DNA of 64,000 bases from Brachyhypopomus gauderio. Its lineage: Eukaryota > Chordata > Actinopteri > Gymnotiformes > Hypopomidae. The position numbers and the translations under genes are program-made. The notes beneath the pieces were generated by a model. That model saw only the letters and a program-made list of their open reading frames with translations, ran no database searches and was not told the origin of the DNA. The stretch lies in NCBI RefSeq assembly GCF_052324685.1, contig NW_027507037.1, positions 145,001 through 209,000 on the forward strand, written 5' to 3'. Below are positions 1 to 64,000 of this stretch, piece by piece. How positions within the stretch are numbered: the first letter of the stretch is position 1; the number at the start of each line of letters is the position of its first letter.

Positions 1-150
1 TTTTCAGAGTTACATATAGCTTAGCATTTTTTACTTTGAAAGTTAGGCAAGCATTGTTCCTCACAAGTTCAGCCCTGCTCATGTACCAAGTTGAGAATGC
101 TGCTTTGGAGGACTCCAGACTTGAAAATTGCAAAAAAGATATTATCAAAG

Positions 151-232
151 GGTAGCGTGGCCGAGCGGTCTAAGGCGCTGGATTTAGGCTTCAGTCTCTG
201 CGGAGGCGTGGGTTCGAATCCCACCGCTGCCA
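151..232 (+). tRNA. tRNA-Leu-TAG: tRNA-Leu (TAG), mosaic class A unit
   Basis: Type II tRNA with acceptor stem ggtagcg/cgctgcc, anticodon TAG at 185-187, a long variable arm and discriminator A. C41T turns one anticodon-stem pair into G:U. The T5 terminator is at 240-244. Spacer 1 downstream mixes class A and class C marks. Confidence 0.88.
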
Positions 233-509
233 AGCTGTGTTTTTAGGAGATGGCAGAAGAATTCTTATACCTAATCACTCTCAACAACGGTGCCTGACCC
301 AAGGCTGAAGAGCAGTCATTCGCATGATGGTAGCAGAGAGCCATGCCACGATGCCATTTGCAAATGCTCATACCTGGCTTTGTTCTTAGGCGACATTGAA
401 GACCCTGCAGTGTTTTGATAACAGGCAGGAAATGATGCATCTTTCCTCTTCTGACAGAAGACAAATTCAGCTTCTTCTACAAGAATGTCAGCAAATACAG
501 TCTTCCTGT

Positions 510-585
510 GGTAGCGTGTCTGAGTGGTCTAAGGCACTGGATTTAGGCTCCAGTCTCTGAGAAGGCATGGGATCGAATGCTGCCA
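510..585 (+). pseudogene. tRNA-Leu-like element (reference copy)
   Basis: This 76-nt relic aligns end to end with tRNA-Leu-TAG with 8 substitutions and a 6-nt gap. It keeps the acceptor stem, the anticodon arm (TAG) and a 3' A. It has lost the 3' strand of the T stem, and its B box reads ggatcgaatgc. The A box is weakened (tgtctgagtgg). Four of the 8 substitutions are CpG-to-TpG/CpA changes. The first T run of four or more downstream is 691-695. It is unlikely to make a tRNA. Confidence 0.85.
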
Positions 586-841
586 GCTGGTAACTTTACA
601 ATGATTCTTGCCTTTGTGTTCTCTTGAAAACCCTCTCTTCCAGTACAGATGACGGGAAACAATTTGAAAAAGACATTGGAACCCTTCTTCTTTTTCAGAG
701 TTACATATAACTTAGCATTTTTTACTTTGAAAGTTAGGCAAGCATTGTTCCTCACAAGTTCAGCCCTGCTCATGTACCAAGTTGAGAATGCTGCTTTGGA
801 GGACTCCAGACTTGAAAATTGCAAAAAAGATATTACCAAAG

Positions 842-923
842 GGTAGCGTGGCCGAGCGGTCTAAGGCGCTAGATTTAAGCTCCAGTCTCTGCGGAGGCGT
901 GGGTTCGAATCCCACCGCTGCCT
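842..923 (+). tRNA. tRNA-Leu-like gene with TAA anticodon, probably defective
   Basis: G37A changes the anticodon from TAG to TAA (876-878), still a leucine anticodon. G30A makes an A:C mismatch in the anticodon stem, and the discriminator is T instead of the A that leucyl-tRNA synthetase requires. A and B boxes are intact, so it may be transcribed, but charging is doubtful. The T5 terminator is at 931-935. Confidence 0.75.
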
Positions 924-1200
924 AGCAGTGTTTTTAAGAGATGGCAGAAGAATTCTTATACCTAATCACTCTCAACAATGGTGCCTGACCCAAGGCTGAA
1001 GAGCAGTCATTCGCATGATGGTAGCAGAGAGCCATGCCACGATGCCATTTGCAAATGCTCATACCTGGCTTTGTTCTTAGGCGACATTGAAGACCCTGCG
1101 GTGTTTTGATAACAGGCAGGAAATGATGCATCTTTCCTCTTCTGACAGAAGAAAAATTCACCTTCTTCCACAAGAATGTCAGCAAATGCAGTCTTCCTGT
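924..1200. other. Spacer 1 (representative): between tRNA gene and tRNA-like element
   Basis: These 277 nt hold the terminator, most of the class-diagnostic sites and a perfect 12-bp palindrome catttgcaaatg (1046-1057) that resembles an octamer site. Further on is a hairpin-prone stretch around ggaaatgatgcatctttcc. I recognise no gene here. Reading frames on the minus strand are open in all copies only because the copies are near-identical. Confidence 0.7.
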
Positions 1201-1276
1201 GGTAGCGTGTCTGAGTGGTCTAAGGCACTGGATTTAGGCTCCAGTCTCTGAGAAGGCATGGGATCGACTGCTGCCA
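1201..1276 (+). pseudogene. tRNA-Leu-like element
   Basis: Variant gac in the T loop (gggatcgactgc). Confidence 0.82.
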
Positions 1277-1532
1277 GCTGGTAACTTTACAATGATTCTT
1301 GCCTTTGTGTTCTCTTGAAAACCCTCTCTTCCAGTACAGATGACGGGAAACAATTTGAAAAAGACATTGGAACCCTTCTTCTTTTTCAGAGTTACATATA
1401 GCTTAGCATTTTTTACTTTGAAAGTTAGGCAAGCATTGTTCCTCACAAGTTCAGCCCTGCTCATGTACCAAGTTGAGAATGCTGCTTTGGAGGACTCCAG
1501 ACTTGAAAATTGCAAAAAAGATATTACCAAAG
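1277..1532. other. Spacer 2 (representative): between tRNA-like element and next tRNA gene
   Basis: These 256 nt contain two pyrimidine tracts ending in CAG (1322-1334 and 1373-1389) that look like 3' splice sites. The second includes a T5 run (1382-1386), and an A-rich stretch lies just before the next tRNA. A 65-codon + strand frame and a 98-codon minus frame overlap here. Their variable sites are mostly amino-acid-changing, so I do not call a protein. Confidence 0.7.
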
Positions 1533-1614
1533 GGTAGCGTGACCGAGCGGTCTAAGGCGCTGGATTTAGGCTCCAGTCTCTGCGGAGGCGTGGGTTCGAA
1601 TCCCACCGCTGCCA
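1533..1614 (+). tRNA. tRNA-Leu-TAG: tRNA-Leu (TAG), D-stem variant
   Basis: Class A. G10A breaks the 10:26 D-stem pair and changes a conserved A-box base. The rest is consensus. T5 terminator 1622-1626. Confidence 0.85.
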
Positions 1615-1891
1615 AGCAGTGTTTTTAAGAGATGGCAGAAGAATTCTTATACCTAATCACTCTCAACAATGGTGCCTGACCCAAGGCTGAAGAGCAGTCA
1701 TTCGCATGATGGTAGCAGAGAGCCATGCCACGATGCCATTTGCAAATGCTCATACCTGGCTTTGTTCTTAGGCGACATTGAAGACCCTGCGGTGTTTTGA
1801 TAACAGGCAGGAAATGATGCATCTTTCCTCTTCTGACAGAAGAAAAATTCACCTTCTTCCACAAGAATGTCAGCAAATGCAGTCTACCTGT

Positions 1892-1967
1892 GGTAGCGTG
1901 TCTGAGTGGTCTAAGGCACTGGATTTAGGCTCCAGTCTCTGAGAAGGCATGGGATCGAATGCTGCCA
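1892..1967 (+). pseudogene. tRNA-Leu-like element
   Basis: Reference form. Confidence 0.82.
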
Positions 1968-2223
1968 GCTGGTAACTTTACAATGATTCTTGCCTTTGTG
2001 TTCTCTTGAAAACCCTCTCTTCCAGTACAGATGACGGGAAACAATTTGAAAAAGACATTGGAACCCTTCTTCTTTTTCAGAGTTACATATAGCTTAGCAT
2101 TTTTTACTTTGAAAGTTAGGCAAGCATTGTTCCTCACAAGTTCAGCCCTGCTCATGTACCAAGTTGAGAATGCTGCTTTGGAGGACTCCAGACTTGAAAA
2201 TTGCAAAAAAGAGATTACCACAG

Positions 2224-2305: not shown

Positions 2306-2310
2306 AGCAG

Positions 2311-46702: not shown

Positions 46703-46778
46703 GGTAGCGTGTCTGAGTGGTCTAAGGCACTGGATTTAGGCTCCAGTCTCTGAGAAGGCATGGGATCGAATGCTGCCA
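46703..46778 (+). pseudogene. tRNA-Leu-like element
   Basis: Reference form. Confidence 0.82.
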
Positions 46779-47116: not shown

Positions 47117-47393
47117 AGCAGTGTTTTTAGGAGATGGCAGAAGAATTCTTATACCTAATCACTCTCAACAACGGTGCCTGACCCAAGGCTGAAGAGCAGT
47201 TATTCGCATGATGGTAGCAGAGAGCCATGCTACGATGCCATTTGCAAATGCTCATACCTGGCTTTGTTCTTAGGCGACATTGAAGACCCTGCAGTGTTTT
47301 GATAACAGGCAGGAAATGATGCATCTTTCCTCTTCTGACAGAAGACAAATTCAGCTTCTTCTACAAGAATGTCAGCAAATACAGTCTTCCTGT

Positions 47394-47469
47394 GGTAGCG
47401 TGTCTGAGTGGTTTAAGGCACTGTATTTAGGCTCCAGTCTCTGAGAAGGCATGGGATCGAATGCTGCCA
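47394..47469 (+). pseudogene. tRNA-Leu-like element, C' form
   Basis: C' double variant. Confidence 0.82.
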
Positions 47470-47725
47470 GCTGGTAACTTTACAATGATTCTTGCCTTTG
47501 TGTTCTCTTGAAAACCCTCTCTTCCAGTACAGATGACGGGAAACAATTTGAAAAAGACATTGGAACCCTTCTTCTTTTTCAGAGTTACATATAGCTTAGC
47601 ATTTTTTACTTTGAAAGTTAGGCAAGCATTGTTCCTCACAAGTTCAGCCCTGCTCATGTACCAAGTTGAGAATGCTGCTTTGGAGGACTCCAGACTTGAA
47701 AATTGCAAAAAAGAGATTACCACAG

Positions 47726-47807
47726 GGTAGCGTGGCCGAGCGGTCTAAGGCGCTGGATTAAGGCTCCAGTCTCTGCGGAGGCGTGGGTTCGAATCCCACC
47801 GCTGCCA
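47726..47807 (+). tRNA. tRNA-Leu-AAG: tRNA-Leu (AAG)
   Basis: Class B, consensus. T7 terminator 47813-47819. Confidence 0.94.
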
Positions 47808-48083
47808 AGCAGTTTTTTTGGAGATGGCAGAAGAATTCTTATACCTAATCACTCTCAACAACGGTGCCTGACCCAAGGCTGAAGAGCAGTTATTCGCATG
47901 ATGGTAGCAGAGAGCCATGCTACGATGCCATTTGCAAATGCTCATACCTGGCTTTGTTCTTAGGCGACATTGAAGACCCTGCAGTGTTTTGATAACAGGC
48001 AGGAAATGATGCATCTTTCCTCTTCTGACAGAAGACAAATTCAGCTTCTTCTACAAGAATGTCAGCAAATACAGTCTTCCTGT

Positions 48084-48159
48084 GGTAGCGTGTCTGAGTG
48101 GTCTAAGGCACTGGATTTAGGCTCCAGTCTCTGAGAAGGCATGGGATCGAATGCTGCCA
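48084..48159 (+). pseudogene. tRNA-Leu-like element
   Basis: Reference form. Confidence 0.82.
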
Positions 48160-48415
48160 GCTGGTAACTTTACAATGATTCTTGCCTTTGTGTTCTCTTG
48201 AAAACCCTCTCTTCCAGTACAGATGACGGGAAACAATTTGAAAAAGACATTGGAACCCTTCTTCTTTTTCAGAGTTACATATAGCTTAGCATTTTTTACT
48301 TTGAAAGTTAGGCAAGCATTGTTCCTCACAAGTTCAGCCCTGCTCATGTACCAAGTTGAGAATGCTGCTTTGGAGGACTCCAGACTTGAAAATTGCAAAA
48401 AAGATATTACCAAAG

Positions 48416-48497
48416 GGTAGCGTGGCCGAGCGGTCTAAGGCGCTGGATTTAGGCTCCAGTCTCTGCGGAGGCGTGGGTTCGAATCCCACCGCTGCCA
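48416..48497 (+). tRNA. tRNA-Leu-TAG: tRNA-Leu (TAG)
   Basis: Class A, consensus. T5 terminator 48505-48509. Confidence 0.94.
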
Positions 48498-48774
48498 AGC
48501 AGTGTTTTTAAGAGATGGCAGAAGAATTCTTATACCTAATCACTCTCAACAATGGTGCCTGACCCAAGGCTGAAGAGCAGTCATTCGCATGATGGTAGCA
48601 GAGAGCCATGCCACGATGCCATTTGCAAATGCTCATACCTGGCTTTGTTCTTAGGCGACATTGAAGACCCTGCGGTGTTTTGATAACAGGCAGGAAATGA
48701 TGCATCTTTCCTCTTCTGACAGAAGAAAAATTCACCTTCTTCCACAAGAATGTCAGCAAATGCAGTCTACCTGT

Positions 48775-48850
48775 GGTAGCGTGTCTGAGTGGTCTAAGGC
48801 ACTGGATTTAGGCTCCAGTCTCTGAGAAGGCATGGGATCGAATGCTGCCA
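48775..48850 (+). pseudogene. tRNA-Leu-like element
   Basis: Reference form. Confidence 0.82.
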
Positions 48851-49106
48851 GCTGGTAACTTTACAATGATTCTTGCCTTTGTGTTCTCTTGAAAACCCTC
48901 TCTTCCAGTACAGATGACGGGAAACAATTTGAAAAAGACATTGGAACCCTTCTTCTTTTTCAGAGTTACATATAGCTTAGCATTTTTTACTTTGAAAGTT
49001 AGGCAAGCATTGTTCCTCACAAGTTCAGCCCTGCTCATGTACCAAGTTGAGAATGCTGCTTTGGAGGACTCCAGACTTGAAAATTGCAAAAAAGAGATTA
49101 CCACAG

Positions 49107-49188
49107 GGTAGCGTGGCCGAGCGGTCTAAGGCGCTGGATTAAGGCTCCAGTCTCTGCGGAGGCGTGGGTTCGAATCCCACCGCTGCCA
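49107..49188 (+). tRNA. tRNA-Leu-AAG: tRNA-Leu (AAG)
   Basis: Class C without the C' change, consensus. T5 terminator 49196-49200. Confidence 0.93.
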
Positions 49189-49465
49189 AGCAGTGTTTTT
49201 AGGAGATGGCAGAAGAATTCTTATACCTAATCACTCTCAACAACGGTGCCTGACCCAAGGCTGAAGAGCAGTTATTCGCATGATGGTAGCAGAGAGCCAT
49301 GCTACGATGCCATTTGCAAATGCTCATACCTGGCTTTGTTCTTAGGCGACATTGAAGACCCTGCAGTGTTTTGATAACAGGCAGGAAATGATGCATCTTT
49401 CCTCTTCTGACAGAAGACAAATTCAGCTTCTTCTACAAGAATGTCAGCAAATACAGTCTTCCTGT

Positions 49466-49541
49466 GGTAGCGTGTCTGAGTGGTTTAAGCCACTGGATTT
49501 AGGCTCCAGTCTCTGAGAAGGCATGGGATCGAATGCTGCCA
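49466..49541 (+). pseudogene. tRNA-Leu-like element
   Basis: Variant ggtttaagccactgg, shared only with the copy at 58445. Confidence 0.82.
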
Positions 49542-49797
49542 GCTGGTAACTTTACAATGATTCTTGCCTTTGTGTTCTCTTGAAAACCCTCTCTTCCAGT
49601 ACAGATGACGGGAAACAATTTGAAAAAGACATTGGAACCCTTCTTCTTTTTCAGAGTTACATATAACTTAGCATTTTTTACTTTGAAAGTTAGGCAAGCA
49701 TTGTTCCTCACAAGTTCAGCCCTGCTCATGTACCAAGTTGAGAATGCTGCTTTGGAGGACTCCAGACTTGAAAATTGCAAAAAAGATATTACCAAAG

Positions 49798-49879
49798 GGT
49801 AGCGTGGCCGAGCGGTCTAAGGCGCTGGATTTAGGCTCCAGTCTCTGCGGAGGCGTGGGTTCGAATCCCACCGCTGCCA
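49798..49879 (+). tRNA. tRNA-Leu-TAG: tRNA-Leu (TAG)
   Basis: Class A, consensus. T5 terminator 49887-49891. Confidence 0.94.
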
Positions 49880-50156
49880 AGCAGTGTTTTTAAGAGATGG
49901 CAGAAGAATTCTTATACCTAATCACTCTCAACAATGGTGCCTGACCCAAGGCTGAAGAGCAGTCATTCGCATGATGGTAGCAGAGAGCCATGCCACGATG
50001 CCATTTGCAAATGCTCATACCTGGCTTTGTTCTTAGGCGACATTGAAGACCCTGCGGTGTTTTGATAACAGGCAGGAAATGATGCATCTTTCCTCTTCTG
50101 ACAGAAGAAAAATTCACCTTCTTCCACAAGAATGTCAGCAAATGCAGTCTTCCTGT

Positions 50157-50232
50157 GGTAGCGTGTCTGAGTGGTCTAAGGCACTGGATTTAGGCTCCAG
50201 TCTCTGAGAAGGCATGGGATCGAATGCTGCCA
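50157..50232 (+). pseudogene. tRNA-Leu-like element
   Basis: Reference form. Confidence 0.82.
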
Positions 50233-50488
50233 GCTGGTAACTTTACAATGATTCTTGCCTTTGTGTTCTCTTGAAAACCCTCTCTTCCAGTACAGATGAC
50301 GGGAAACAATTTGAAAAAGACATTGGAACCCTTCTTCTTTTTCAGAGTTACATATAGCTTAGCATTTTTTACTTTGAAAGTTAGGCAAGCATTGTTCCTC
50401 ACAAGTTCAGCCCTGCTCATGTACCAAGTTGAGAATGCTGCTTTGGAGGACTCCAGACTTGAAAATTGCAAAAAAGAGATTACCACAG

Positions 50489-50570
50489 GGTAGCGTGGCC
50501 GAGCGGTCTAAGGCGCTGGATTTAGGCTCCAGTCTCTGCGGAGGCGTGGGTTCGAATCCCACCGCTGCCA
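50489..50570 (+). tRNA. tRNA-Leu-TAG: tRNA-Leu (TAG)
   Basis: Class A, consensus. T5 terminator 50578-50582. Confidence 0.94.
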
Positions 50571-50847
50571 AGCAGTGTTTTTAAGAGATGGCAGAAGAAT
50601 TCTTATACCTAATCACTCTCAACAATGGTGCCTGACCCAAGGCTGAAGAGCAGTCATTCGCATGATGGTAGCAGAGAGCCATGCCACGATGCCATTTGCA
50701 AATGCTCATACCTGGCTTTGTTCTTAGGCGACATTGAAGACCCTGCGGTGTTTTGATAACAGGCAGGAAATGATGCATCTTTCCTCTTCTGACAGAAGAA
50801 AAATTCACCTTCTTCCACAAGAATGTCAGCAAATGCAGTCTTCCTGT

Positions 50848-50923
50848 GGTAGCGTGTCTGAGTGGTCTAAGGCACTGGATTTAGGCTCCAGTCTCTGAGA
50901 AGGCATGGGATCGAATGCTGCCA
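50848..50923 (+). pseudogene. tRNA-Leu-like element
   Basis: Reference form. Confidence 0.82.
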
Positions 50924-51179
50924 GCTGGTAACTTTACAATGATTCTTGCCTTTGTGTTCTCTTGAAAACCCTCTCTTCCAGTACAGATGACGGGAAACAA
51001 TTTGAAAAAGACATTGGAACCCTTCTTCTTTTTCAGAGTTACATATAGCTTAGCATTTTTTACTTTGAAAGTTAGGCAAGCATTGTTCCTCACAAGTTCA
51101 GCCCTGCTCATGTACCAAGTTGAGAATGCTGCTTTGGAGGACTCCAGACTTGAAAATTGCAAAAAAGATATTACCACAG

Positions 51180-51261
51180 GGTAGCGTGGCCGAGCGGTCT
51201 AAGGCGCTGGATTAAGGCTCCAGTCTCTGCGGAGTCGTGGGTTTGAATCCCACCGCTGCCA
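51180..51261 (+). tRNA. tRNA-Leu-AAG: tRNA-Leu (AAG), subtype C' with broken B-box CpG
   Basis: G56T plus C65T. The latter changes the invariant TTCGA of the B box and T loop to TTTGA, a CpG-to-TpG change, so it is likely poorly transcribed. T5 terminator 51269-51273. Confidence 0.8.
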
Positions 51262-51538
51262 AGCAGTGTTTTTAGGAGATGGCAGAAGAATTCTTATACC
51301 TAATCACTCTCAACAACGGTGCCTGACCCAAGGCTGAAGAGCAGTTATTCGCATGATGGTAGCAGAGAGCCATGCTACGATGCCATTTGCAAATGCTCAT
51401 ACCTGGCTTTGTTCTTAGGCGACATTGAAGACCCTGCAGTGTTTTGATAACAGGCAGGAAATGATGCATCTTTCCTCTTCTGACAGAAGACAAATTCAGC
51501 TTCTTCTACAAGAATGTCAGCAAATACAGTCTTCCTGT

Positions 51539-51614
51539 GGTAGCGTGTCTGAGTGGTTTAAGGCACTGTATTTAGGCTCCAGTCTCTGAGAAGGCATGGG
51601 ATCGAATGCTGCCA
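51539..51614 (+). pseudogene. tRNA-Leu-like element, C' form
   Basis: C' double variant. Confidence 0.82.
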
Positions 51615-51870
51615 GCTGGTAACTTTACAATGATTCTTGCCTTTGTGTTCTCTTGAAAACCCTCTCTTCCAGTACAGATGACGGGAAACAATTTGAAAAA
51701 GACATTGGAACCCTTCTTCTTTTTCAGAGTTACATATAGCTTAGCATTTTTTACTTTGAAAGTTAGGCAAGCATTGTTCCTCACAAGTTCAGCCCTGCTC
51801 ATGTACCAAGTTGAGAATGCTGCTTTGGAGGACTCCAGACTTGAAAATTGCAAAAAAGAGATTACCACAG

Positions 51871-51952
51871 GGTAGCGTGGCCGAGCGGTCTAAGGCGCTG
51901 GATTAAGGCTCCAGTCTCTGCGGAGGCGTGGGTTCGAATCCCACCGCTGCCA
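51871..51952 (+). tRNA. tRNA-Leu-AAG: tRNA-Leu (AAG)
   Basis: Class B, consensus. T7 terminator 51958-51964. Confidence 0.94.
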
Positions 51953-52228
51953 AGCAGTTTTTTTGGAGATGGCAGAAGAATTCTTATACCTAATCACTCT
52001 CAACAACGGTGCCTGACCCAAGGCTGAAGAGCAGTTATTCGCATGATGGTAGCAGAGAGCCATGCTACGATGCCATTTGCAAATGCTCATACCTGGCTTT
52101 GTTCTTAGGCGACATTGAAGACCCTGCAGTGTTTTGATAACAGGCAGGAAATGATGCATCTTTCCTCTTCTGACAGAAGACAAATTCAGCTTCTTCTACA
52201 AGAATGTCAGCAAATACAGTCTTCCTGT

Positions 52229-52304
52229 GGTAGCGTGTCTGAGTGGTCTAAGGCACTGGATTTAGGCTCCAGTCTCTGAGAAGGCATGGGATCGAATGCT
52301 GCCA
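52229..52304 (+). pseudogene. tRNA-Leu-like element
   Basis: Reference form. Confidence 0.82.
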
Positions 52305-52560
52305 GCTGGTAACTTTACAATGATTCTTGCCTTTGTGTTCTCTTGAAAACCCTCTCTTCCAGTACAGATGACGGGAAACAATTTGAAAAAGACATTGGAA
52401 CCCTTCTTCTTTTTCAGAGTTACATATAGCTTAGCATTTTTTACTTTGAAAGTTAGGCAAGCATTGTTCCTCACAAGTTCAGCCCTGCTCATGTACCAAG
52501 TTGAGAATGCTGCTTTGGAGGACTCCAGACTTGAAAATTGCAAAAAAGATATTACCAAAG

Positions 52561-52642
52561 GGTAGCGTGGCCGAGCGGTCTAAGGCGCTGGATTTAGGCT
52601 CCAGTCTCTGCGGAGGCGTGGGTTCGAATCCCACCGCTGCCA
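52561..52642 (+). tRNA. tRNA-Leu-TAG: tRNA-Leu (TAG)
   Basis: Class A, consensus. T5 terminator 52650-52654. Confidence 0.94.
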
Positions 52643-52919
52643 AGCAGTGTTTTTAAGAGATGGCAGAAGAATTCTTATACCTAATCACTCTCAACAATGG
52701 TGCCTGACCCAAGGCTGAAGAGCAGTCATTCGCATGATGGTAGCAGAGAGCCATGCCACGATGCCATTTGCAAATGCTCATACCTGGCTTTGTTCTTAGG
52801 CGACATTGAAGACCCTGCGGTGTTTTGATAACAGGCAGGAAATGATGCATCTTTCCTCTTCTGACAGAAGAAAAATTCACCTTCTTCCACAAGAATGTCA
52901 GCAAATGCAGTCTACCTGT

Positions 52920-52995
52920 GGTAGCGTGTCTGAGTGGTCTAAGGCACTGGATTTAGGCTCCAGTCTCTGAGAAGGCATGGGATCGAATGCTGCCA
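52920..52995 (+). pseudogene. tRNA-Leu-like element
   Basis: Reference form. Confidence 0.82.
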
Positions 52996-53251
52996 GCTGG
53001 TAACTTTACAATGATTCTTGCCTTTGTGTTCTCTTGAAAACCCTCTCTTCCAGTACAGATGACGGGAAACAATTTGAAAAAGACATTGGAACCCTTCTTC
53101 TTTTTCAGAGTTACATATAGCTTAGCATTTTTTACTTTGAAAGTTAGGCAAGCATTGTTCCTCACAAGTTCAGCCCTGCTCATGTACCAAGTTGAGAATG
53201 CTGCTTTGGAGGACTCCAGACTTGAAAATTGCAAAAAAGAGATTACCACAG

Positions 53252-53333
53252 GGTAGCGTGGCCGAGCGGTCTAAGGCGCTGGATTTAGGCTCCAGTCTCT
53301 GCGGAGGCGTGGGTTCGAATCCCACCGCTGCCA
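53252..53333 (+). tRNA. tRNA-Leu-TAG: tRNA-Leu (TAG)
   Basis: Class A, consensus. T5 terminator 53341-53345. Confidence 0.94.
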
Positions 53334-53610
53334 AGCAGTGTTTTTAAGAGATGGCAGAAGAATTCTTATACCTAATCACTCTCAACAATGGTGCCTGACC
53401 CAAGGCTGAAGAGCAGTCATTCGCATGATGGTAGCAGAGAGCCATGCCACGATGCCATTTGCAAATGCTCATACCTGGCTTTGTTCTTAGGCGACATTGA
53501 AGACCCTGCGGTGTTTTGATAACAGGCAGGAAATGATGCATCTTTCCTCTTCTGACAGAAGAAAAATTCACCTTCTTCCACAAGAATGTCAGCAAATGCA
53601 GTCTTCCTGT

Positions 53611-53686
53611 GGTAGCGTGTCTGAGTGGTCTAAGGCACTGGATTTAGGCTCCAGTCTCTGAGAAGGCATGGGATCGAATGCTGCCA
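53611..53686 (+). pseudogene. tRNA-Leu-like element
   Basis: Reference form. Confidence 0.82.
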
Positions 53687-53942
53687 GCTGGTAACTTTAC
53701 AATGATTCTTGCCTTTGTGTTCTCTTGAAAACCCTCTCTTCCAGTACAGATGACGGGAAACAATTTGAAAAAGACATTGGAACCCTTCTTCTTTTTCAGA
53801 GTTACATATAGCTTAGCATTTTTTACTTTGAAAGTTAGGCAAGCATTGTTCCTCACAAGTTCAGCCCTGCTCATGTACCAAGTTGAGAATGCTGCTTTGG
53901 AGGACTCCAGACTTGAAAATTGCAAAAAAGAGATTACCACAG

Positions 53943-54024
53943 GGTAGCGTGGCCGAGCGGTCTAAGGCGCTGGATTAAGGCTCCAGTCTCTGCGGAGGCG
54001 TGGGTTCGAATCCCACCGCTGCCA
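53943..54024 (+). tRNA. tRNA-Leu-AAG: tRNA-Leu (AAG)
   Basis: Class B (B*), consensus. T7 terminator 54030-54036. Confidence 0.94.
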
Positions 54025-54300
54025 AGCAGTTTTTTTGGAGATGGCAGAAGAATTCTTATACCTAATCACTCTCAACAACGGTGCCTGACCCAAGGCTGAA
54101 GAGCAGTTATTCGCATGATGGTAGCAGAGAGCCATGCTACGATGCCATTTGCAAATGCTCATACCTGGCTTTGTTCTTAGGCGACATTGAAGACCCTGCA
54201 GTGTTTTGATAACAGGCAGGAAATGATGCATCTTTCCTCTTCTGACAGAAGACAAATTCAGCTTCTTCTACAAGAATGTCAGCAAATACAGTCTTCCTGT

Positions 54301-54376
54301 GGTAGCGTGTCTGAGTGGTCTAAGGCACTGGATTTAGGCTCCAGTCTCTGAGAAGGCATGGGATCGAATGCGGCCA
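54301..54376 (+). pseudogene. tRNA-Leu-like element, B* form
   Basis: Ends gcggcca. Confidence 0.82.
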
Positions 54377-54632
54377 GCTGGTAACTTTACAATGATTCTT
54401 GCCTTTGTGTTCTCTTGAAAACCCTCTCTTCCAGTACAGATGACGGGAAACAATTTGAAAAAGACATTGGAACCCTTCTTCTTTTTCAGAGTTACATATA
54501 GCTTAGCATTTTTTACTTTGAAAGTTAGGCAAGCATTGTTCCTCACAAGTTCAGCCCTGCTCATGTACCAAGTTGAGAATGCTGCTTTGGAGGACTCCAG
54601 ACTTGAAAATTGCAAAAAAGATATTACCAAAG

Positions 54633-54714
54633 GGTAGCGTGGCCGAGCGGTCTAAGGCGCTGGATTTAGGCTCCAGTCTCTGCGGAGGCGTGGGTTCGAA
54701 TCCCACCGCTGCCA
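54633..54714 (+). tRNA. tRNA-Leu-TAG: tRNA-Leu (TAG)
   Basis: Class A, consensus. T5 terminator 54722-54726. Confidence 0.94.
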
Positions 54715-54991
54715 AGCAGTGTTTTTAAGAGATGGCAGAAGAATTCTTATACCTAATCACTCTCAACAATGGTGCCTGACCCAAGGCTGAAGAGCAGTCA
54801 TTCGCATGATGGTAGCAGAGAGCCATGCCACGATGCCATTTGCAAATGCTCATACCTGGCTTTGTTCTTAGGCGACATTGAAGACCCTGCGGTGTTTTGA
54901 TAACAGGCAGGAAATGATGCATCTTTCCTCTTCTGACAGAAGAAAAATTCACCTTCTTCCACAAGAATGTCAGCAAATGCAGTCTACCTGT

Positions 54992-55067
54992 GGTAGCGTG
55001 TCTGAGTGGTCTAAGGCACTGGATTTAGGCTCCAGTCTCTGAGAAGGCATGGGATCGAATGCTGCCA
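54992..55067 (+). pseudogene. tRNA-Leu-like element
   Basis: Reference form. Confidence 0.82.
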
Positions 55068-55323
55068 GCTGGTAACTTTACAATGATTCTTGCCTTTGTG
55101 TTCTCTTGAAAACCCTCTCTTCCAGTACAGATGACGGGAAACAATTTGAAAAAGACATTGGAACCCTTCTTCTTTTTCAGAGTTACATATAGCTTAGCAT
55201 TTTTTACTTTGAAAGTTAGGCAAGCATTGTTCCTCACAAGTTCAGCCCTGCTCATGTACCAAGTTGAGAATGCTGCTTTGGAGGACTCCAGACTTGAAAA
55301 TTGCAAAAAAGATATTACCACAG

Positions 55324-55405
55324 GGTAGCGTGGCCGAGCGGTCTAAGGCGCTGGATTAAGGCTCCAGTCTCTGCGGAGTCGTGGGTTCGAATCCCACCGC
55401 TGCCA
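55324..55405 (+). tRNA. tRNA-Leu-AAG: tRNA-Leu (AAG), subtype C'
   Basis: G56T only. T5 terminator 55413-55417. Confidence 0.9.
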
Positions 55406-55682
55406 AGCAGTGTTTTTAGGAGATGGCAGAAGAATTCTTATACCTAATCACTCTCAACAACGGTGCCTGACCCAAGGCTGAAGAGCAGTTATTCGCATGA
55501 TGGTAGCAGAGAGCCATGCTACGATGCCATTTGCAAATGCTCATACCTGGCTTTGTTCTTAGGCGACATTGAAGACCCTGCAGTGTTTTGATAACAGGCA
55601 GGAAATGATGCATCTTTCCTCTTCTGACAGAAGACAAATTCAGCTTCTTCTACAAGAATGTCAGCAAATACAGTCTTCCTGT

Positions 55683-55758
55683 GGTAGCGTGTCTGAGTGG
55701 TTTAAGGCACTGTATTTAGGCTCCAGTCTCTGAGAAGGCATGGGATCGAATGCTGCCA
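55683..55758 (+). pseudogene. tRNA-Leu-like element, C' form
   Basis: C' double variant. Confidence 0.82.
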
Positions 55759-56014
55759 GCTGGTAACTTTACAATGATTCTTGCCTTTGTGTTCTCTTGA
55801 AAACCCTCTCTTCCAGTACAGATGACGGGAAACAATTTGAAAAAGACATTGGAACCCTTCTTCTTTTTCAGAGTTACATATAGCTTAGCATTTTTTACTT
55901 TGAAAGTTAGGCAAGCATTGTTCCTCACAAGTTCAGCCCTGCTCATGTACCAAGTTGAGAATGCTGCTTTGGAGGACTCCAGACTTGAAAATTGCAAAAA
56001 AGAGATTACCACAG

Positions 56015-56096
56015 GGTAGCGTGGCCGAGCGGTCTAAGGCGCTGGATTAAGGCTCCAGTCTCTGCGGAGGCGTGGGTTCGAATCCCACCGCTGCCA
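56015..56096 (+). tRNA. tRNA-Leu-AAG: tRNA-Leu (AAG)
   Basis: Class B, consensus. T7 terminator 56102-56108. Confidence 0.94.
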
Positions 56097-56372
56097 AGCA
56101 GTTTTTTTGGAGATGGCAGAAGAATTCTTATACCTAATCACTCTCAACAACGGTGCCTGACCCAAGGCTGAAGAGCAGTTATTCGCATGATGGTAGCAGA
56201 GAGCCATGCTACGATGCCATTTGCAAATGCTCATACCTGGCTTTGTTCTTAGGCGACATTGAAGACCCTGCAGTGTTTTGATAACAGGCAGGAAATGATG
56301 CATCTTTCCTCTTCTGACAGAAGACAAATTCAGCTTCTTCTACAAGAATGTCAGCAAATACAGTCTTCCTGT

Positions 56373-56448
56373 GGTAGCGTGTCTGAGTGGTCTAAGGCAC
56401 TGGATTTAGGCTCCAGTCTCTGAGAAGGCATGGGATCGAATGCTGCCA
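56373..56448 (+). pseudogene. tRNA-Leu-like element
   Basis: Reference form. Confidence 0.82.
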
Positions 56449-56704
56449 GCTGGTAACTTTACAATGATTCTTGCCTTTGTGTTCTCTTGAAAACCCTCTC
56501 TTCCAGTACAGATGACGGGAAACAATTTGAAAAAGACATTGGAACCCTTCTTCTTTTTCAGAGTTACATATAGCTTAGCATTTTTTACTTTGAAAGTTAG
56601 GCAAGCATTGTTCCTCACAAGTTCAGCCCTGCTCATGTACCAAGTTGAGAATGCTGCTTTGGAGGACTCCAGACTTGAAAATTGCAAAAAAGAGATTACC
56701 ACAG

Positions 56705-56786
56705 GGTAGCGTGGCCGAGCGGTCTAAGGCGCTGGATTAAGGCTCCAGTCTCTGCGGAGGCGTGGGTTCGAATCCCACCGCTGCCA
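56705..56786 (+). tRNA. tRNA-Leu-AAG: tRNA-Leu (AAG)
   Basis: Class B, consensus; the only B unit that directly follows another B unit without the Bq change. T7 terminator 56792-56798. Confidence 0.94.
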
Positions 56787-57062
56787 AGCAGTTTTTTTGG
56801 AGATGGCAGAAGAATTCTTATACCTAATCACTCTCAACAACGGTGCCTGACCCAAGGCTGAAGAGCAGTTATTCGCATGATGGTAGCAGAGAGCCATGCT
56901 ACGATGCCATTTGCAAATGCTCATACCTGGCTTTGTTCTTAGGCGACATTGAAGACCCTGCAGTGTTTTGATAACAGGCAGGAAATGATGCATCTTTCCT
57001 CTTCTGACAGAAGACAAATTCAGCTTCTTCTACAAGAATGTCAGCAAATACAGTCTTCCTGT

Positions 57063-57138
57063 GGTAGCGTGTCTGAGTGGTCTAAGGCACTGGATTTAGG
57101 CTCCAGTCTCTGAGAAGGCATGGGATCGAATGCTGCCA
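57063..57138 (+). pseudogene. tRNA-Leu-like element
   Basis: Reference form. Confidence 0.82.
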
Positions 57139-57394
57139 GCTGGTAACTTTACAATGATTCTTGCCTTTGTGTTCTCTTGAAAACCCTCTCTTCCAGTACA
57201 GATGACGGGAAACAATTTGAAAAAGACATTGGAACCCTTCTTCTTTTTCAGAGTTACATATAGCTTAGCATTTTTTACTTTGAAAGTTAGGCAAGCATTG
57301 TTCCTCACAAGTTCAGCCCTGCTCATGTACCAAGTTGAGAATGCTGCTTTGGAGGACTCCAGACTTGAAAATTGCAAAAAAGATATTACCAAAG

Positions 57395-57476
57395 GGTAGC
57401 GTGGCCGAGCGGTCTAAGGCGCTGGATTTAGGCTCCAGTCTCTGCGGAGGCGTGGGTTCGAATCCCACCGCTGCCA
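57395..57476 (+). tRNA. tRNA-Leu-TAG: tRNA-Leu (TAG)
   Basis: Class A, consensus. T5 terminator 57484-57488. Confidence 0.94.
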
Positions 57477-57753
57477 AGCAGTGTTTTTAAGAGATGGCAG
57501 AAGAATTCTTATACCTAATCACTCTCAACAATGGTGCCTGACCCAAGGCTGAAGAGCAGTCATTCGCATGATGGTAGCAGAGAGCCATGCCACGATGCCA
57601 TTTGCAAATGCTCATACCTGGCTTTGTTCTTAGGCGACATTGAAGACCCTGCGGTGTTTTGATAACAGGCAGGAAATGATGCATCTTTCCTCTTCTGACA
57701 GAAGAAAAATTCACCTTCTTCCACAAGAATGTCAGCAAATGCAGTCTACCTGT

Positions 57754-57829
57754 GGTAGCGTGTCTGAGTGGTCTAAGGCACTGGATTTAGGCTCCAGTCT
57801 CTGAGAAGGCATGGGATCGAATGCTGCCA
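57754..57829 (+). pseudogene. tRNA-Leu-like element
   Basis: Reference form. Confidence 0.82.
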
Positions 57830-58085
57830 GCTGGTAACTTTACAATGATTCTTGCCTTTGTGTTCTCTTGAAAACCCTCTCTTCCAGTACAGATGACGGG
57901 AAACAATTTGAAAAAGACATTGGAACCCTTCTTCTTTTTCAGAGTTACATATAGCTTAGCATTTTTTACTTTGAAAGTTAGGCAAGCATTGTTCCTCACA
58001 AGTTCAGCCCTGCTCATGTACCAAGTTGAGAATGCTGCTTTGGAGGACTCCAGACTTGAAAATTGCAAAAAAGAGATTACCACAG

Positions 58086-58167
58086 GGTAGCGTGGCCGAG
58101 CGGTCTAAGGCGCTGGATTAAGGCTCCAGTCTCTGCGGAGGCGTGGGTTCGAATCCCACCGCTGCCA
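58086..58167 (+). tRNA. tRNA-Leu-AAG: tRNA-Leu (AAG)
   Basis: Class C without the C' change, consensus, like the gene at 49107. T5 terminator 58175-58179. Confidence 0.93.
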
Positions 58168-58444
58168 AGCAGTGTTTTTAGGAGATGGCAGAAGAATTCT
58201 TATACCTAATCACTCTCAACAACGGTGCCTGACCCAAGGCTGAAGAGCAGTTATTCGCATGATGGTAGCAGAGAGCCATGCTACGATGCCATTTGCAAAT
58301 GCTCATACCTGGCTTTGTTCTTAGGCGACATTGAAGACCCTGCAGTGTTTTGATAACAGGCAGGAAATGATGCATCTTTCCTCTTCTGACAGAAGACAAA
58401 TTCAGCTTCTTCTACAAGAATGTCAGCAAATACAGTCTTCCTGT

Positions 58445-58520
58445 GGTAGCGTGTCTGAGTGGTTTAAGCCACTGGATTTAGGCTCCAGTCTCTGAGAAGG
58501 CATGGGATCGAATGCTGCCA
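58445..58520 (+). pseudogene. tRNA-Leu-like element
   Basis: Variant ggtttaagccactgg, as at 49466. Confidence 0.82.
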
Positions 58521-58776
58521 GCTGGTAACTTTACAATGATTCTTGCCTTTGTGTTCTCTTGAAAACCCTCTCTTCCAGTACAGATGACGGGAAACAATTT
58601 GAAAAAGACATTGGAACCCTTCTTCTTTTTCAGAGTTACATATAACTTAGCATTTTTTACTTTGAAAGTTAGGCAAGCATTGTTCCTCACAAGTTCAGCC
58701 CTGCTCATGTACCAAGTTGAGAATGCTGCTTTGGAGGACTCCAGACTTGAAAATTGCAAAAAAGATATTACCAAAG

Positions 58777-58858
58777 GGTAGCGTGGCCGAGCGGTCTAAG
58801 GCGCTGGATTTAGGCTCCAGTCTCTGCGGAGGCGTGGGTTCGAATCCCACCGCTGCCA
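58777..58858 (+). tRNA. tRNA-Leu-TAG: tRNA-Leu (TAG)
   Basis: Class A, consensus. T5 terminator 58866-58870. Confidence 0.94.
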
Positions 58859-59135
58859 AGCAGTGTTTTTAAGAGATGGCAGAAGAATTCTTATACCTAA
58901 TCACTCTCAACAATGGTGCCTGACCCAAGGCTGAAGAGCAGTCATTCGCATGATGGTAGCAGAGAGCCATGCCACGATGCCATTTGCAAATGCTCATACC
59001 TGGCTTTGTTCTTAGGCGACATTGAAGACCCTGCGGTGTTTTGATAACAGGCAGGAAATGATGCATCTTTCCTCTTCTGACAGAAGAAAAATTCACCTTC
59101 TTCCACAAGAATGTCAGCAAATGCAGTCTTCCTGT

Positions 59136-59211
59136 GGTAGCGTGTCTGAGTGGTCTAAGGCACTGGATTTAGGCTCCAGTCTCTGAGAAGGCATGGGATC
59201 GAATGCTGCCA
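59136..59211 (+). pseudogene. tRNA-Leu-like element
   Basis: Reference form. Confidence 0.82.
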
Positions 59212-59467
59212 GCTGGTAACTTTACAATGATTCTTGCCTTTGTGTTCTCTTGAAAACCCTCTCTTCCAGTACAGATGACGGGAAACAATTTGAAAAAGAC
59301 ATTGGAACCCTTCTTCTTTTTCAGAGTTACATATAGCTTAGCATTTTTTACTTTGAAAGTTAGGCAAGCATTGTTCCTCACAAGTTCAGCCCTGCTCATG
59401 TACCAAGTTGAGAATGCTGCTTTGGAGGACTCCAGACTTGAAAATTGCAAAAAAGAGATTACCACAG

Positions 59468-59549
59468 GGTAGCGTGGCCGAGCGGTCTAAGGCGCTGGAT
59501 TTAGGCTCCAGTCTCTGCGGAGGCGTGGGTTCGAATCCCACCGCTGCCA
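59468..59549 (+). tRNA. tRNA-Leu-TAG: tRNA-Leu (TAG)
   Basis: Class A, consensus. T5 terminator 59557-59561. Confidence 0.94.
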
Positions 59550-59826
59550 AGCAGTGTTTTTAAGAGATGGCAGAAGAATTCTTATACCTAATCACTCTCA
59601 ACAATGGTGCCTGACCCAAGGCTGAAGAGCAGTCATTCGCATGATGGTAGCAGAGAGCCATGCCACGATGCCATTTGCAAATGCTCATACCTGGCTTTGT
59701 TCTTAGGCGACATTGAAGACCCTGCGGTGTTTTGATAACAGGCAGGAAATGATGCATCTTTCCTCTTCTGACAGAAGAAAAATTCACCTTCTTCCACAAG
59801 AATGTCAGCAAATGCAGTCTTCCTGT

Positions 59827-59902
59827 GGTAGCGTGTCTGAGTGGTCTAAGGCACTGGATTTAGGCTCCAGTCTCTGAGAAGGCATGGGATCGAATGCTGC
59901 CA
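59827..59902 (+). pseudogene. tRNA-Leu-like element
   Basis: Reference form. Confidence 0.82.
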
Positions 59903-60158
59903 GCTGGTAACTTTACAATGATTCTTGCCTTTGTGTTCTCTTGAAAACCCTCTCTTCCAGTACAGATGACGGGAAACAATTTGAAAAAGACATTGGAACC
60001 CTTCTTCTTTTTCAGAGTTACATATAGCTTAGCATTTTTTACTTTGAAAGTTAGGCAAGCATTGTTCCTCACAAGTTCAGCCCTGCTCATGTACCAAGTT
60101 GAGAATGCTGCTTTGGAGGACTCCAGACTTGAAAATTGCAAAAAAGAGATTACCACAG

Positions 60159-60240
60159 GGTAGCGTGGCCGAGCGGTCTAAGGCGCTGGATTAAGGCTCC
60201 AGTCTCTGCGGAGGCGTGGGTTCGAATCCCACCGCTGCCA
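60159..60240 (+). tRNA. tRNA-Leu-AAG: tRNA-Leu (AAG)
   Basis: Class B (B*), consensus. T7 terminator 60246-60252. Confidence 0.94.
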
Positions 60241-60516
60241 AGCAGTTTTTTTGGAGATGGCAGAAGAATTCTTATACCTAATCACTCTCAACAACGGTGC
60301 CTGACCCAAGGCTGAAGAGCAGTTATTCGCATGATGGTAGCAGAGAGCCATGCTACGATGCCATTTGCAAATGCTCATACCTGGCTTTGTTCTTAGGCGA
60401 CATTGAAGACCCTGCAGTGTTTTGATAACAGGCAGGAAATGATGCATCTTTCCTCTTCTGACAGAAGACAAATTCAGCTTCTTCTACAAGAATGTCAGCA
60501 AATACAGTCTTCCTGT

Positions 60517-60592
60517 GGTAGCGTGTCTGAGTGGTCTAAGGCACTGGATTTAGGCTCCAGTCTCTGAGAAGGCATGGGATCGAATGCGGCCA
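60517..60592 (+). pseudogene. tRNA-Leu-like element, B* form
   Basis: Ends gcggcca. Confidence 0.82.
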
Positions 60593-60848
60593 GCTGGTAA
60601 CTTTACAATGATTCTTGCCTTTGTGTTCTCTTGAAAACCCTCTCTTCCAGTACAGATGACGGGAAACAATTTGAAAAAGACATTGGAACCCTTCTTCTTT
60701 TTCAGAGTTACATATAGCTTAGCATTTTTTACTTTGAAAGTTAGGCAAGCATTGTTCCTCACAAGTTCAGCCCTGCTCATGTACCAAGTTGAGAATGCTG
60801 CTTTGGAGGACTCCAGACTTGAAAATTGCAAAAAAGATATTACCAAAG

Positions 60849-60930
60849 GGTAGCGTGGCCGAGCGGTCTAAGGCGCTGGATTTAGGCTCCAGTCTCTGCG
60901 GAGGCGTGGGTTCGAATCCCACCGCTGCCA
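60849..60930 (+). tRNA. tRNA-Leu-TAG: tRNA-Leu (TAG)
   Basis: Class A, consensus. T5 terminator 60938-60942. Confidence 0.94.
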
Positions 60931-61207
60931 AGCAGTGTTTTTAAGAGATGGCAGAAGAATTCTTATACCTAATCACTCTCAACAATGGTGCCTGACCCAA
61001 GGCTGAAGAGCAGTCATTCGCATGATGGTAGCAGAGAGCCATGCCACGATGCCATTTGCAAATGCTCATACCTGGCTTTGTTCTTAGGCGACATTGAAGA
61101 CCCTGCGGTGTTTTGATAACAGGCAGGAAATGATGCATCTTTCCTCTTCTGACAGAAGAAAAATTCACCTTCTTCCACAAGAATGTCAGCAAATGCAGTC
61201 TACCTGT

Positions 61208-61283
61208 GGTAGCGTGTCTGAGTGGTCTAAGGCACTGGATTTAGGCTCCAGTCTCTGAGAAGGCATGGGATCGAATGCTGCCA
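61208..61283 (+). pseudogene. tRNA-Leu-like element
   Basis: Reference form. Confidence 0.82.
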
Positions 61284-61539
61284 GCTGGTAACTTTACAAT
61301 GATTCTTGCCTTTGTGTTCTCTTGAAAACCCTCTCTTCCAGTACAGATGACGGGAAACAATTTGAAAAAGACATTGGAACCCTTCTTCTTTTTCAGAGTT
61401 ACATATAGCTTAGCATTTTTTACTTTGAAAGTTAGGCAAGCATTGTTCCTCACAAGTTCAGCCCTGCTCATGTACCAAGTTGAGAATGCTGCTTTGGAGG
61501 ACTCCAGACTTGAAAATTGCAAAAAAGATATTACCACAG

Positions 61540-61621
61540 GGTAGCGTGGCCGAGCGGTCTAAGGCGCTGGATTAAGGCTCCAGTCTCTGCGGAGTCGTGG
61601 GTTCGAATCCCACCGCTGCCA
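61540..61621 (+). tRNA. tRNA-Leu-AAG: tRNA-Leu (AAG), subtype C'
   Basis: G56T only. T5 terminator 61629-61633. Confidence 0.9.
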
Positions 61622-61898
61622 AGCAGTGTTTTTAGGAGATGGCAGAAGAATTCTTATACCTAATCACTCTCAACAACGGTGCCTGACCCAAGGCTGAAGA
61701 GCAGTTATTCGCATGATGGTAGCAGAGAGCCATGCTACGATGCCATTTGCAAATGCTCATACCTGGCTTTGTTCTTAGGCGACATTGAAGACCCTGCAGT
61801 GTTTTGATAACAGGCAGGAAATGATGCATCTTTCCTCTTCTGACAGAAGACAAATTCAGCTTCTTCTACAAGAATGTCAGCAAATACAGTCTTCCTGT

Positions 61899-61974
61899 GG
61901 TAGCGTGTCTGAGTGGTTTAAGGCACTGTATTTAGGCTCCAGTCTCTGAGAAGGCATGGGATCGAATGCTGCCA
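61899..61974 (+). pseudogene. tRNA-Leu-like element, C' form
   Basis: C' double variant. Confidence 0.82.
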
Positions 61975-62230
61975 GCTGGTAACTTTACAATGATTCTTGC
62001 CTTTGTGTTCTCTTGAAAACCCTCTCTTCCAGTACAGATGACGGGAAACAATTTGAAAAAGACATTGGAACCCTTCTTCTTTTTCAGAGTTACATATAGC
62101 TTAGCATTTTTTACTTTGAAAGTTAGGCAAGCATTGTTCCTCACAAGTTCAGCCCTGCTCATGTACCAAGTTGAGAATGCTGCTTTGGAGGACTCCAGAC
62201 TTGAAAATTGCAAAAAAGAGATTACCACAG

Positions 62231-62312
62231 GGTAGCGTGGCCGAGCGGTCTAAGGCGCTGGATTAAGGCTCCAGTCTCTGCGGAGGCGTGGGTTCGAATC
62301 CCACCGCTGCCA
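62231..62312 (+). tRNA. tRNA-Leu-AAG: tRNA-Leu (AAG)
   Basis: Class B, consensus. T7 terminator 62318-62324. Confidence 0.94.
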
Positions 62313-62588
62313 AGCAGTTTTTTTGGAGATGGCAGAAGAATTCTTATACCTAATCACTCTCAACAACGGTGCCTGACCCAAGGCTGAAGAGCAGTTATTC
62401 GCATGATGGTAGCAGAGAGCCATGCTACGATGCCATTTGCAAATGCTCATACCTGGCTTTGTTCTTAGGCGACATTGAAGACCCTGCAGTGTTTTGATAA
62501 CAGGCAGGAAATGATGCATCTTTCCTCTTCTGACAGAAGACAAATTCAGCTTCTTCTACAAGAATGTCAGCAAATACAGTCTTCCTGT

Positions 62589-62664
62589 GGTAGCGTGTCT
62601 GAGTGGTCTAAGGCACTGGATTTAGGCTCCAGTCTCTGAGAAGGCATGGGATCGAATGCTGCCA
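62589..62664 (+). pseudogene. tRNA-Leu-like element
   Basis: Reference form. Confidence 0.82.
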
Positions 62665-62920
62665 GCTGGTAACTTTACAATGATTCTTGCCTTTGTGTTC
62701 TCTTGAAAACCCTCTCTTCCAGTACAGATGACGGGAAACAATTTGAAAAAGACATTGGAACCCTTCTTCTTTTTCAGAGTTACATATAGCTTAGCATTTT
62801 TTACTTTGAAAGTTAGGCAAGCATTGTTCCTCACAAGTTCAGCCCTGCTCATGTACCAAGTTGAGAATGCTGCTTTGGAGGACTCCAGACTTGAAAATTG
62901 CAAAAAAGATATTACCAAAG

Positions 62921-63002
62921 GGTAGCGTGGCCGAGCGGTCTAAGGCGCTGGATTTAGGCTCCAGTCTCTGCGGAGGCGTGGGTTCGAATCCCACCGCTGC
63001 CA
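62921..63002 (+). tRNA. tRNA-Leu-TAG: tRNA-Leu (TAG)
   Basis: Class A, consensus. T5 terminator 63010-63014. Confidence 0.94.
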
Positions 63003-63279
63003 AGCAGTGTTTTTAAGAGATGGCAGAAGAATTCTTATACCTAATCACTCTCAACAATGGTGCCTGACCCAAGGCTGAAGAGCAGTCATTCGCATGATGG
63101 TAGCAGAGAGCCATGCCACGATGCCATTTGCAAATGCTCATACCTGGCTTTGTTCTTAGGCGACATTGAAGACCCTGCGGTGTTTTGATAACAGGCAGGA
63201 AATGATGCATCTTTCCTCTTCTGACAGAAGAAAAATTCACCTTCTTCCACAAGAATGTCAGCAAATGCAGTCTACCTGT

Positions 63280-63355
63280 GGTAGCGTGTCTGAGTGGTCT
63301 AAGGCACTGGATTTAGGCTCCAGTCTCTGAGAAGGCATGGGATCGAATGCTGCCA
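63280..63355 (+). pseudogene. tRNA-Leu-like element
   Basis: Reference form. Confidence 0.82.
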
Positions 63356-63611
63356 GCTGGTAACTTTACAATGATTCTTGCCTTTGTGTTCTCTTGAAAA
63401 CCCTCTCTTCCAGTACAGATGACGGGAAACAATTTGAAAAAGACATTGGAACCCTTCTTCTTTTTCAGAGTTACATATAGCTTAGCATTTTTTACTTTGA
63501 AAGTTAGGCAAGCATTGTTCCTCACAAGTTCAGCCCTGCTCATGTACCAAGTTGAGAATGCTGCTTTGGAGGACTCCAGACTTGAAAATTGCAAAAAAGA
63601 TATTACCACAG

Positions 63612-63693
63612 GGTAGCGTGGCCGAGCGGTCTAAGGCGCTGGATTAAGGCTCCAGTCTCTGCGGAGTCGTTGGTTCGAATCCCACCGCTGCCA
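63612..63693 (+). tRNA. tRNA-Leu-AAG: tRNA-Leu (AAG), subtype C' with T-stem change
   Basis: G56T plus G60T, the latter a T:C mismatch in the T stem. T5 terminator 63701-63705. Confidence 0.83.
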
Positions 63694-63970
63694 AGCAGTG
63701 TTTTTAGGAGATGGCAGAAGAATTCTTATACCTAATCACTCTCAACAACGGTGCCTGACCCAAGGCTGAAGAGCAGTTATTCGCATGATGGTAGCAGAGA
63801 GCCATGCTACGATGCCATTTGCAAATGCTCATACCTGGCTTTGTTCTTAGGCGACATTGAAGACCCTGCAGTGTTTTGATAACAGGCAGGAAATGATGCA
63901 TCTTTCCTCTTCTGACAGAAGACAAATTCAGCTTCTTCTACAAGAATGTCAGCAAATACAGTCTTCCTGT

Positions 63971-64000
63971 GGTAGCGTGTCTGAGTGGTTTAAGGCACTG
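63971..64000 (+). pseudogene. tRNA-Leu-like element, cut by window end
   Basis: First 30 nt only. The ggtTtaagg change suggests the C' form, as expected after the C' gene at 63612. Confidence 0.75.

Follow-up and report, generated by a model that had tools for sequence, protein, structure and literature searches.

What keeps a long run of almost identical transfer RNA (tRNA) genes for one amino acid alike in a vertebrate genome? The question is raised by a stretch of 64,000 nucleotides from Brachyhypopomus gauderio, a fish of the family Hypopomidae (contig NW_027507037.1 of RefSeq assembly GCF_052324685.1, positions 145,001 to 209,000 of the forward strand; hereafter the window), which is filled from end to end with tandem repeats that each carry a tRNA-Leu gene. 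An earlier reading of the sequence alone, hereafter the sequence-only reading, had offered three answers: a tRNA supply cluster, a chromatin boundary or heterochromatin block, or a satellite that happens to carry tRNA genes. Our results support the last of these for the origin and upkeep of the array and give no support to a boundary of the CTCF type. On the repeat structure described below, the locus is probably a macrosatellite bearing RNA polymerase III (Pol III) genes, most of them competent, that is maintained by satellite dynamics.

The array and its tRNA-Leu genes

The window is made up of head-to-tail units of 690 or 691 bp, 92 of them complete and a 93rd cut at the window end. ARAGORN called 93 tRNA-Leu genes in the 64-kb window, and the Rfam covariance model RF00005 likewise gave 93 matches (45.3–60.1 bits, against a gathering cut-off of 29); these two tools served as stand-ins for tRNAscan-SE. 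Chance or mis-called tRNAs can be ruled out, since all 93 genes were found by both. No Rfam family other than RF00005 reached its own gathering score anywhere in the window. Weak matches to the families YrlA and mascRNA-menRNA in the first 3 kb lay far below their gathering scores and overlapped tRNA genes, and were taken as tRNA-like noise.

Spacing between gene starts is very regular, at 691 bp in 62 cases, 690 bp in 29 and 609 bp in one. Mean pairwise identity among 91 units is 98.7%, with a minimum of 96.8%, and the 92 complete units comprise 32 distinct sequences, the commonest of which occurs 15 times. This is the long head-to-tail run of near-identical units by which a macrosatellite or tandem tRNA array is recognized. 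Partial unit 93 is left out of every unit-level statistic. Unit 56, which has a deletion, is also left out of the tests of identity, rare variants, G/C sites and the relic described below, and is kept in the lag tests. Gene-level tallies include all 93 genes.

1..64000, plus strand: head-to-tail array of 690/691-bp units, from gene spacing and unit identity
151..232, plus strand: first of the 93 tRNA-Leu genes, anticodon UAG (ARAGORN, RF00005)
240..244, plus strand: Pol III-type terminator of the first gene, a T run
842..923, plus strand: gene of unit 2, altered in its anticodon, anticodon stem and discriminator (ARAGORN, structural checks)
63612-63693, plus strand: last of the 93 tRNA-Leu genes (ARAGORN)

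Most of what the sequence-only reading had said of this anatomy is borne out. There is a single head-to-tail array on one strand, with 93 of 93 genes on the plus strand. For the claim of at least 93 units running past both ends, the gene count holds and the repeat reaches both window edges (just 150 bp lie to the left of the first gene); that the array runs on beyond them is likely. Exact matches to two consensus gene sequences were indeed found in 70 of 93 genes, 40 of the TAG type and 30 of the AAG type. Variants among the copies include an A at acceptor position 78, seen in 8 AAG-type copies and in unit 17, and a G-to-T change that follows the variable stem. The statement that all genes belong to the leucine CUN box needs amending, because the anticodons are 48 AAG, 44 TAG and one TAA: all 93 are leucine anticodons, but only 92 fall in the CUN box.

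The exceptional gene is that of unit 2 (842-923), where the anticodon has changed from TAG to TAA, one anticodon-stem pair is broken and the discriminator has changed from A to T. It is probably non-functional, judging from these defects. The TAA anticodon would still decode leucine, through UUR codons outside the CUN box.

Each of the 93 genes has the cloverleaf, long variable arm and leucine anticodon of a cytosolic-type tRNA-Leu, and in the consensus every stem pair is standard, including the three pairs of the variable stem. The sequence resembles vertebrate tRNA-Leu, and together with the CpG depletion described below it points to a vertebrate host. In a tRNA-derived short interspersed nuclear element, a tRNA head is fused to an unrelated body with a tail, and insertions are dispersed; each live gene here is a complete tRNA, and the genes follow one another strictly in tandem. 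They also possess the promoter and terminator expected of Pol III genes. Box A is present in the one gene body inspected for it (151-232), and box B is exact in 90 of 93 genes. The gene is followed by five Ts at 8 nt in 63 of the 92 complete units, by seven Ts at 6 nt in 28 and by six Ts at 7 nt in one. Because boxes A and B and the T run are present, most of the genes would be competent for Pol III transcription.

These features could be read as the signature of a selected supply locus, kept because some tissue that secretes or grows fast, the oocyte for example, depends on a large supply of tRNA-Leu(IAG/UAG). All structural checks are passed by 78 of the 93 genes, every one of the 92 complete units has a run of at least five Ts within 12 nt of the gene, and the AAG and TAG types stand at a dose near 1:1 (48:44). 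Precedents have been described as well: zebrafish maternal tRNAs come from highly repetitive clusters (PMC11417395), and the SYY array of Arabidopsis is active in root cap cells (PMC12308677). Yet the remaining 15 of 93 copies look damaged: each has lost a stem pair, differs in box B or at the discriminator, or has an anticodon outside the CUN box. Two further observations, on the spread of homogenisation and on the place of rare changes, also speak against selection for supply, and together they make this explanation rather unlikely.

A decayed sister gene and the turnover of units

The first of these observations concerns a second, dead tRNA-Leu in each unit, which the sequence-only reading had overlooked.

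510..587, plus strand: first tRNA-Leu(UAG) relic (match within 10 mismatches, alignment to the gene)
63971-64000, plus strand: start of the 93rd relic, cut by the window end

In every unit the relic begins 359 bp after the start of the gene. Aligned to the gene, it is an 82-nt tRNA-Leu with a TAG anticodon that has acquired several substitutions, has lost 6 nt from the T arm and is altered in both box A and box B. Neither ARAGORN nor Rfam called it, and the first run of at least four Ts past it is 104 nt away. Its decay predates the amplification, because the defects are common to all copies. Possibly, gene and relic could have arisen as an internal dimer with common flanks. This origin was rejected, as the sequences flanking the gene and those flanking the relic are no more alike than shuffled sequences (scores as high came from 62 of 200 shuffles in one alignment and 173 of 200 in the other), although a very old duplication could look alike.

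Relics and genes are uniform to about the same degree. Among 92 complete relics (within 10 mismatches), 68 are identical, compared with 70 of 93 genes in two types. Homogenisation therefore acts on the whole unit, and the uniformity of the genes cannot be taken as evidence that tRNA supply was selected for. The strong homogenisation claimed earlier is real, but it spans a dead relic too and is uninformative on tRNA demand. Hence, we reject uniformity as a sign of selection on the gene.

Repeats that span several units are also present along the array.

29010..63461, plus strand: units 43-92, where a higher-order repeat of three units (about 2.07 kb) stands out clearly; units three apart (lag 3) are 99.27% identical, neighbouring units (lag 1) 98.34%
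30366..35804, plus strand: 5,439-bp direct repeat, the longest exact one in the window, first copy, with units 45-51 whole
37988..38596, plus strand: unit 56, with an 82-bp deletion from the 3' end of the relic into the spacer and a 1-bp overlap at the junction (spacing of 609 bp, alignment)
38572..44010, plus strand: second copy of the 5,439-bp direct repeat, with units 57-63 whole; it begins where unit 56 has its deletion junction

Over the whole array, identity between units has its maxima at multiples of three units. The identities at lag 3 and lag 12 were matched in 0 of 1000 shuffles of unit order; at the other lags, the observed identity was reached in 2 of 1000 shuffles for lag 9, 16 for lag 6, 32 for lag 15, 12 for lag 21 and 91 for lag 24. 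Seven consecutive units (45-51) are repeated exactly 12 units further on. Such internal block duplications are consistent with copy-number variation between individuals, a macrosatellite trait.

The units fall into two classes, one associated with the AAG anticodon and the other with TAG, and 15 of the 92 units are mosaic between the classes at six test sites. In three of these mosaics, an AAG-type unit carries a TAG-type gene region only. These patterns suggest that blocks were duplicated by unequal exchange, either between sister arrays or between homologous ones, and that mosaics arose by short-tract gene conversion.

The two classes differ at 15 columns, all within columns 140-504 of the unit. 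The differences stop sharply, with none in the other 326 columns (505-691 and 1-139), and this border is perhaps the result of an early conversion.

Tandem Repeats Finder, run with periods up to 500, found no short tandem repeats in the spacer. Four exact spacer patterns, two compared with viral contigs and two with genome contigs, had no match in these collections, which are not eukaryotic. Open reading frames in one three-unit stretch are short, with the longest at 98 amino acids, and recur with the unit.

Rare changes, CpG content and transcription

The second observation concerns where rare changes fall. Counting changes found in at most two of 91 units, 10 of 82 gene sites are affected, against 12 of 609 sites elsewhere in the unit (Fisher p 6.4e-5). 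With other cut-offs for rarity, p ranged from 1.8e-5, when a change had to be confined to one unit, to 0.0014, when every variable site was counted. Columns 121-240, which comprise the gene and its edges, hold 15 of the 22 rare sites. The excess is also seen when only G/C sites are considered (9 of 53 in the gene versus 6 of 261 elsewhere, p 1.3e-4), and when the gene is compared with the relic (10 of 82 gene sites, 2 of 78 relic sites, p 0.03). In ordinary tRNA genes, gene-body variation is described as very low, with raised transcription-associated mutagenesis in the flanks (PMC8113476, citing Thornlow 2018). The excess of rare changes in gene bodies is the reverse of this usual pattern. Contrary to what a selected supply locus would lead one to expect, rare changes are commoner in gene bodies than in the spacer.

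Of the 10 rare gene sites, 5 are found in units 1-3 (1-1960). From these variants, an edge of the array may lie near the left end of the window.

An alternative explanation might be that the array is a silent, heterochromatic satellite whose tRNA genes are methylated passengers, untranscribed in most or all tissues. The Arabidopsis SYY cluster, described as lying in heterochromatin and silent in most tissues (PMC12308677), offers a precedent. The observed/expected ratio of CpG in the consensus is 0.25 outside the gene, where transitions are enriched at CpG positions (6 of 24, versus 9 of 585 other positions); both fit a methylated satellite. However, the gene bodies have retained their CpGs (observed/expected 0.95), with transitions at 1 of 17 CpG positions versus 5 of 65 others, numbers that are small. 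Moreover, the mutation peak is located on the gene. This explanation seems to us quite improbable. The CpG pattern would fit germ-line methylation of the spacer with gene bodies spared, although the counts are small.

We return to a gene-bearing macrosatellite, the most probable explanation. A segment of ~690 bp, with one intact tRNA-Leu gene and an already decayed tRNA-Leu(UAG) neighbour, was amplified head to tail. AAG and UAG subfamilies were co-amplified as multi-unit blocks and recombine with one another. The likeness of the units would be upheld by this turnover rather than by selection on each gene. Most genes are probably transcribable by Pol III and have probably been transcribed in the germ line, which would raise their mutation rate, while high redundancy would relax selection on any single copy. 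The gene-body peak would then reflect raised mutation at transcribed genes combined with relaxed constraint per copy, an interpretation that rests partly on units 1-3. The extra dose of tRNA-Leu would be a consequence of the array, and not the cause of its uniformity.

Some of our results weigh against this explanation. When units 1-3 are omitted the mutation peak is weaker (5 of 82 versus 10 of 609, p 0.024), the rare sites are not fully independent owing to common ancestry and block duplication, the p values are uncorrected for the several thresholds, and the three-unit order is weak in units 1-42.

Relation to other tandem tRNA arrays

Xenopus laevis has a tandem tRNA repeat, which our literature search did not return. 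Among the matches listed by that search, whose coverage takes in few subscription papers, no one-family tRNA-Leu array with a unit of this kind is described. Homogeneous tandem repeats of tRNA genes are reported to be uncommon outside Entamoeba (PMC4041453).

A close vertebrate example for comparison is the human tRNA variable number tandem repeat (VNTR) at 1q23.3, which is described as a GC-rich unit of 7.3 kb with five tRNA genes on both strands and CTCF sites, present in 9–43 units of 98% identity (PMC4041453, Darrow and Chadwick 2014). By that account, both loci are large head-to-tail repeats of about 98% unit identity that include tRNA-Leu and behave as macrosatellites. In contrast to the human VNTR, the unit here is 0.69 kb long, the live tRNA genes are all of one family and on one strand, each unit has a relic as well, and at least 93 genes lie in the window. 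The human type is marked by a CTCF site in each unit and by several tRNA types per 7-kb unit; here the CTCF core had no match with at most one mismatch, and the unit of 690/691 bp holds one live tRNA-Leu.

Could the array nevertheless serve as a boundary or insulator like the human one, through TFIIIC binding at box B together with CTCF? It offers 93 box-B-bearing genes per 64 kb, 90 of them with an exact box B, and tRNA genes together with CTCF are stated to be predictive of boundaries (PMC4041453). Against this, the CTCF core CCASNAGRKGGC (a core pattern, used in place of a full weight matrix) had 0 matches with at most one mismatch in the 64-kb window, where 7.3 were expected by chance. The unit is also not GC-rich, unlike the human unit. 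A boundary function is the weakest of the explanations considered, and we regard it as very improbable. The near-identity of the units makes the window effectively one unit's worth of sequence, which bears on how the zero count of CTCF cores is to be read.

Entamoeba arrays consist of units of 1–5 tRNA types that are homogenised, which has been ascribed to concerted evolution (PMC2652664), and in their homogenised tandem units they resemble the array of B. gauderio. Their gene-to-gene spacers are described as containing short tandem repeats, with no clear pseudogene copies reported (PMC2652664). Here the reverse applies, with a relic in each unit. The tRNA-Ser/Tyr (SYY) cluster of Arabidopsis resembles the present array as a tandem tRNA repeat whose core is uniform, whose edges vary and some of whose copies are defective, but differs in having three genes per unit, two amino acids and a location in plant heterochromatin (PMC12308677). 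The zebrafish clusters, mainly on the long arm of chromosome 4, are likewise highly repetitive vertebrate tRNA genes, some of them used maternally; they differ in containing many tRNA types (PMC11417395).

Within the known kind of tandem tRNA arrays, the array of B. gauderio thus has traits of its own: a short unit, two anticodons that alternate yet serve one amino acid, a fossil in each unit and an inverted pattern of variation. Arrays of this kind are difficult to assemble and easily filtered out. For instance, the GtRNAdb filter is reported to exclude tRNAs with excessive gene copies (PMC11417395).

The pairing of a live gene with a dead sister in each unit amounts to a built-in control, 359 bp apart and under the same turnover. 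Because gene and relic share the same units and the same turnover, differences between them report on transcription and selection. A single locus thereby allows one to measure what transcription costs tRNA genes in mutations and how far redundant copies are constrained. A more far-reaching possibility, which we put forward tentatively and consider unlikely as a whole, is that this is a vertebrate germ-line tRNA locus, perhaps of oocyte type, that evolves as a satellite. Two leucine genes one anticodon mutation apart would be held near a 1:1 isoacceptor dose by the three-unit repeat, and transcription would be mutating gene bodies faster than the spacer. If this were true, the array would offer a natural record of how transcription-associated mutation proceeds when selection is relaxed.

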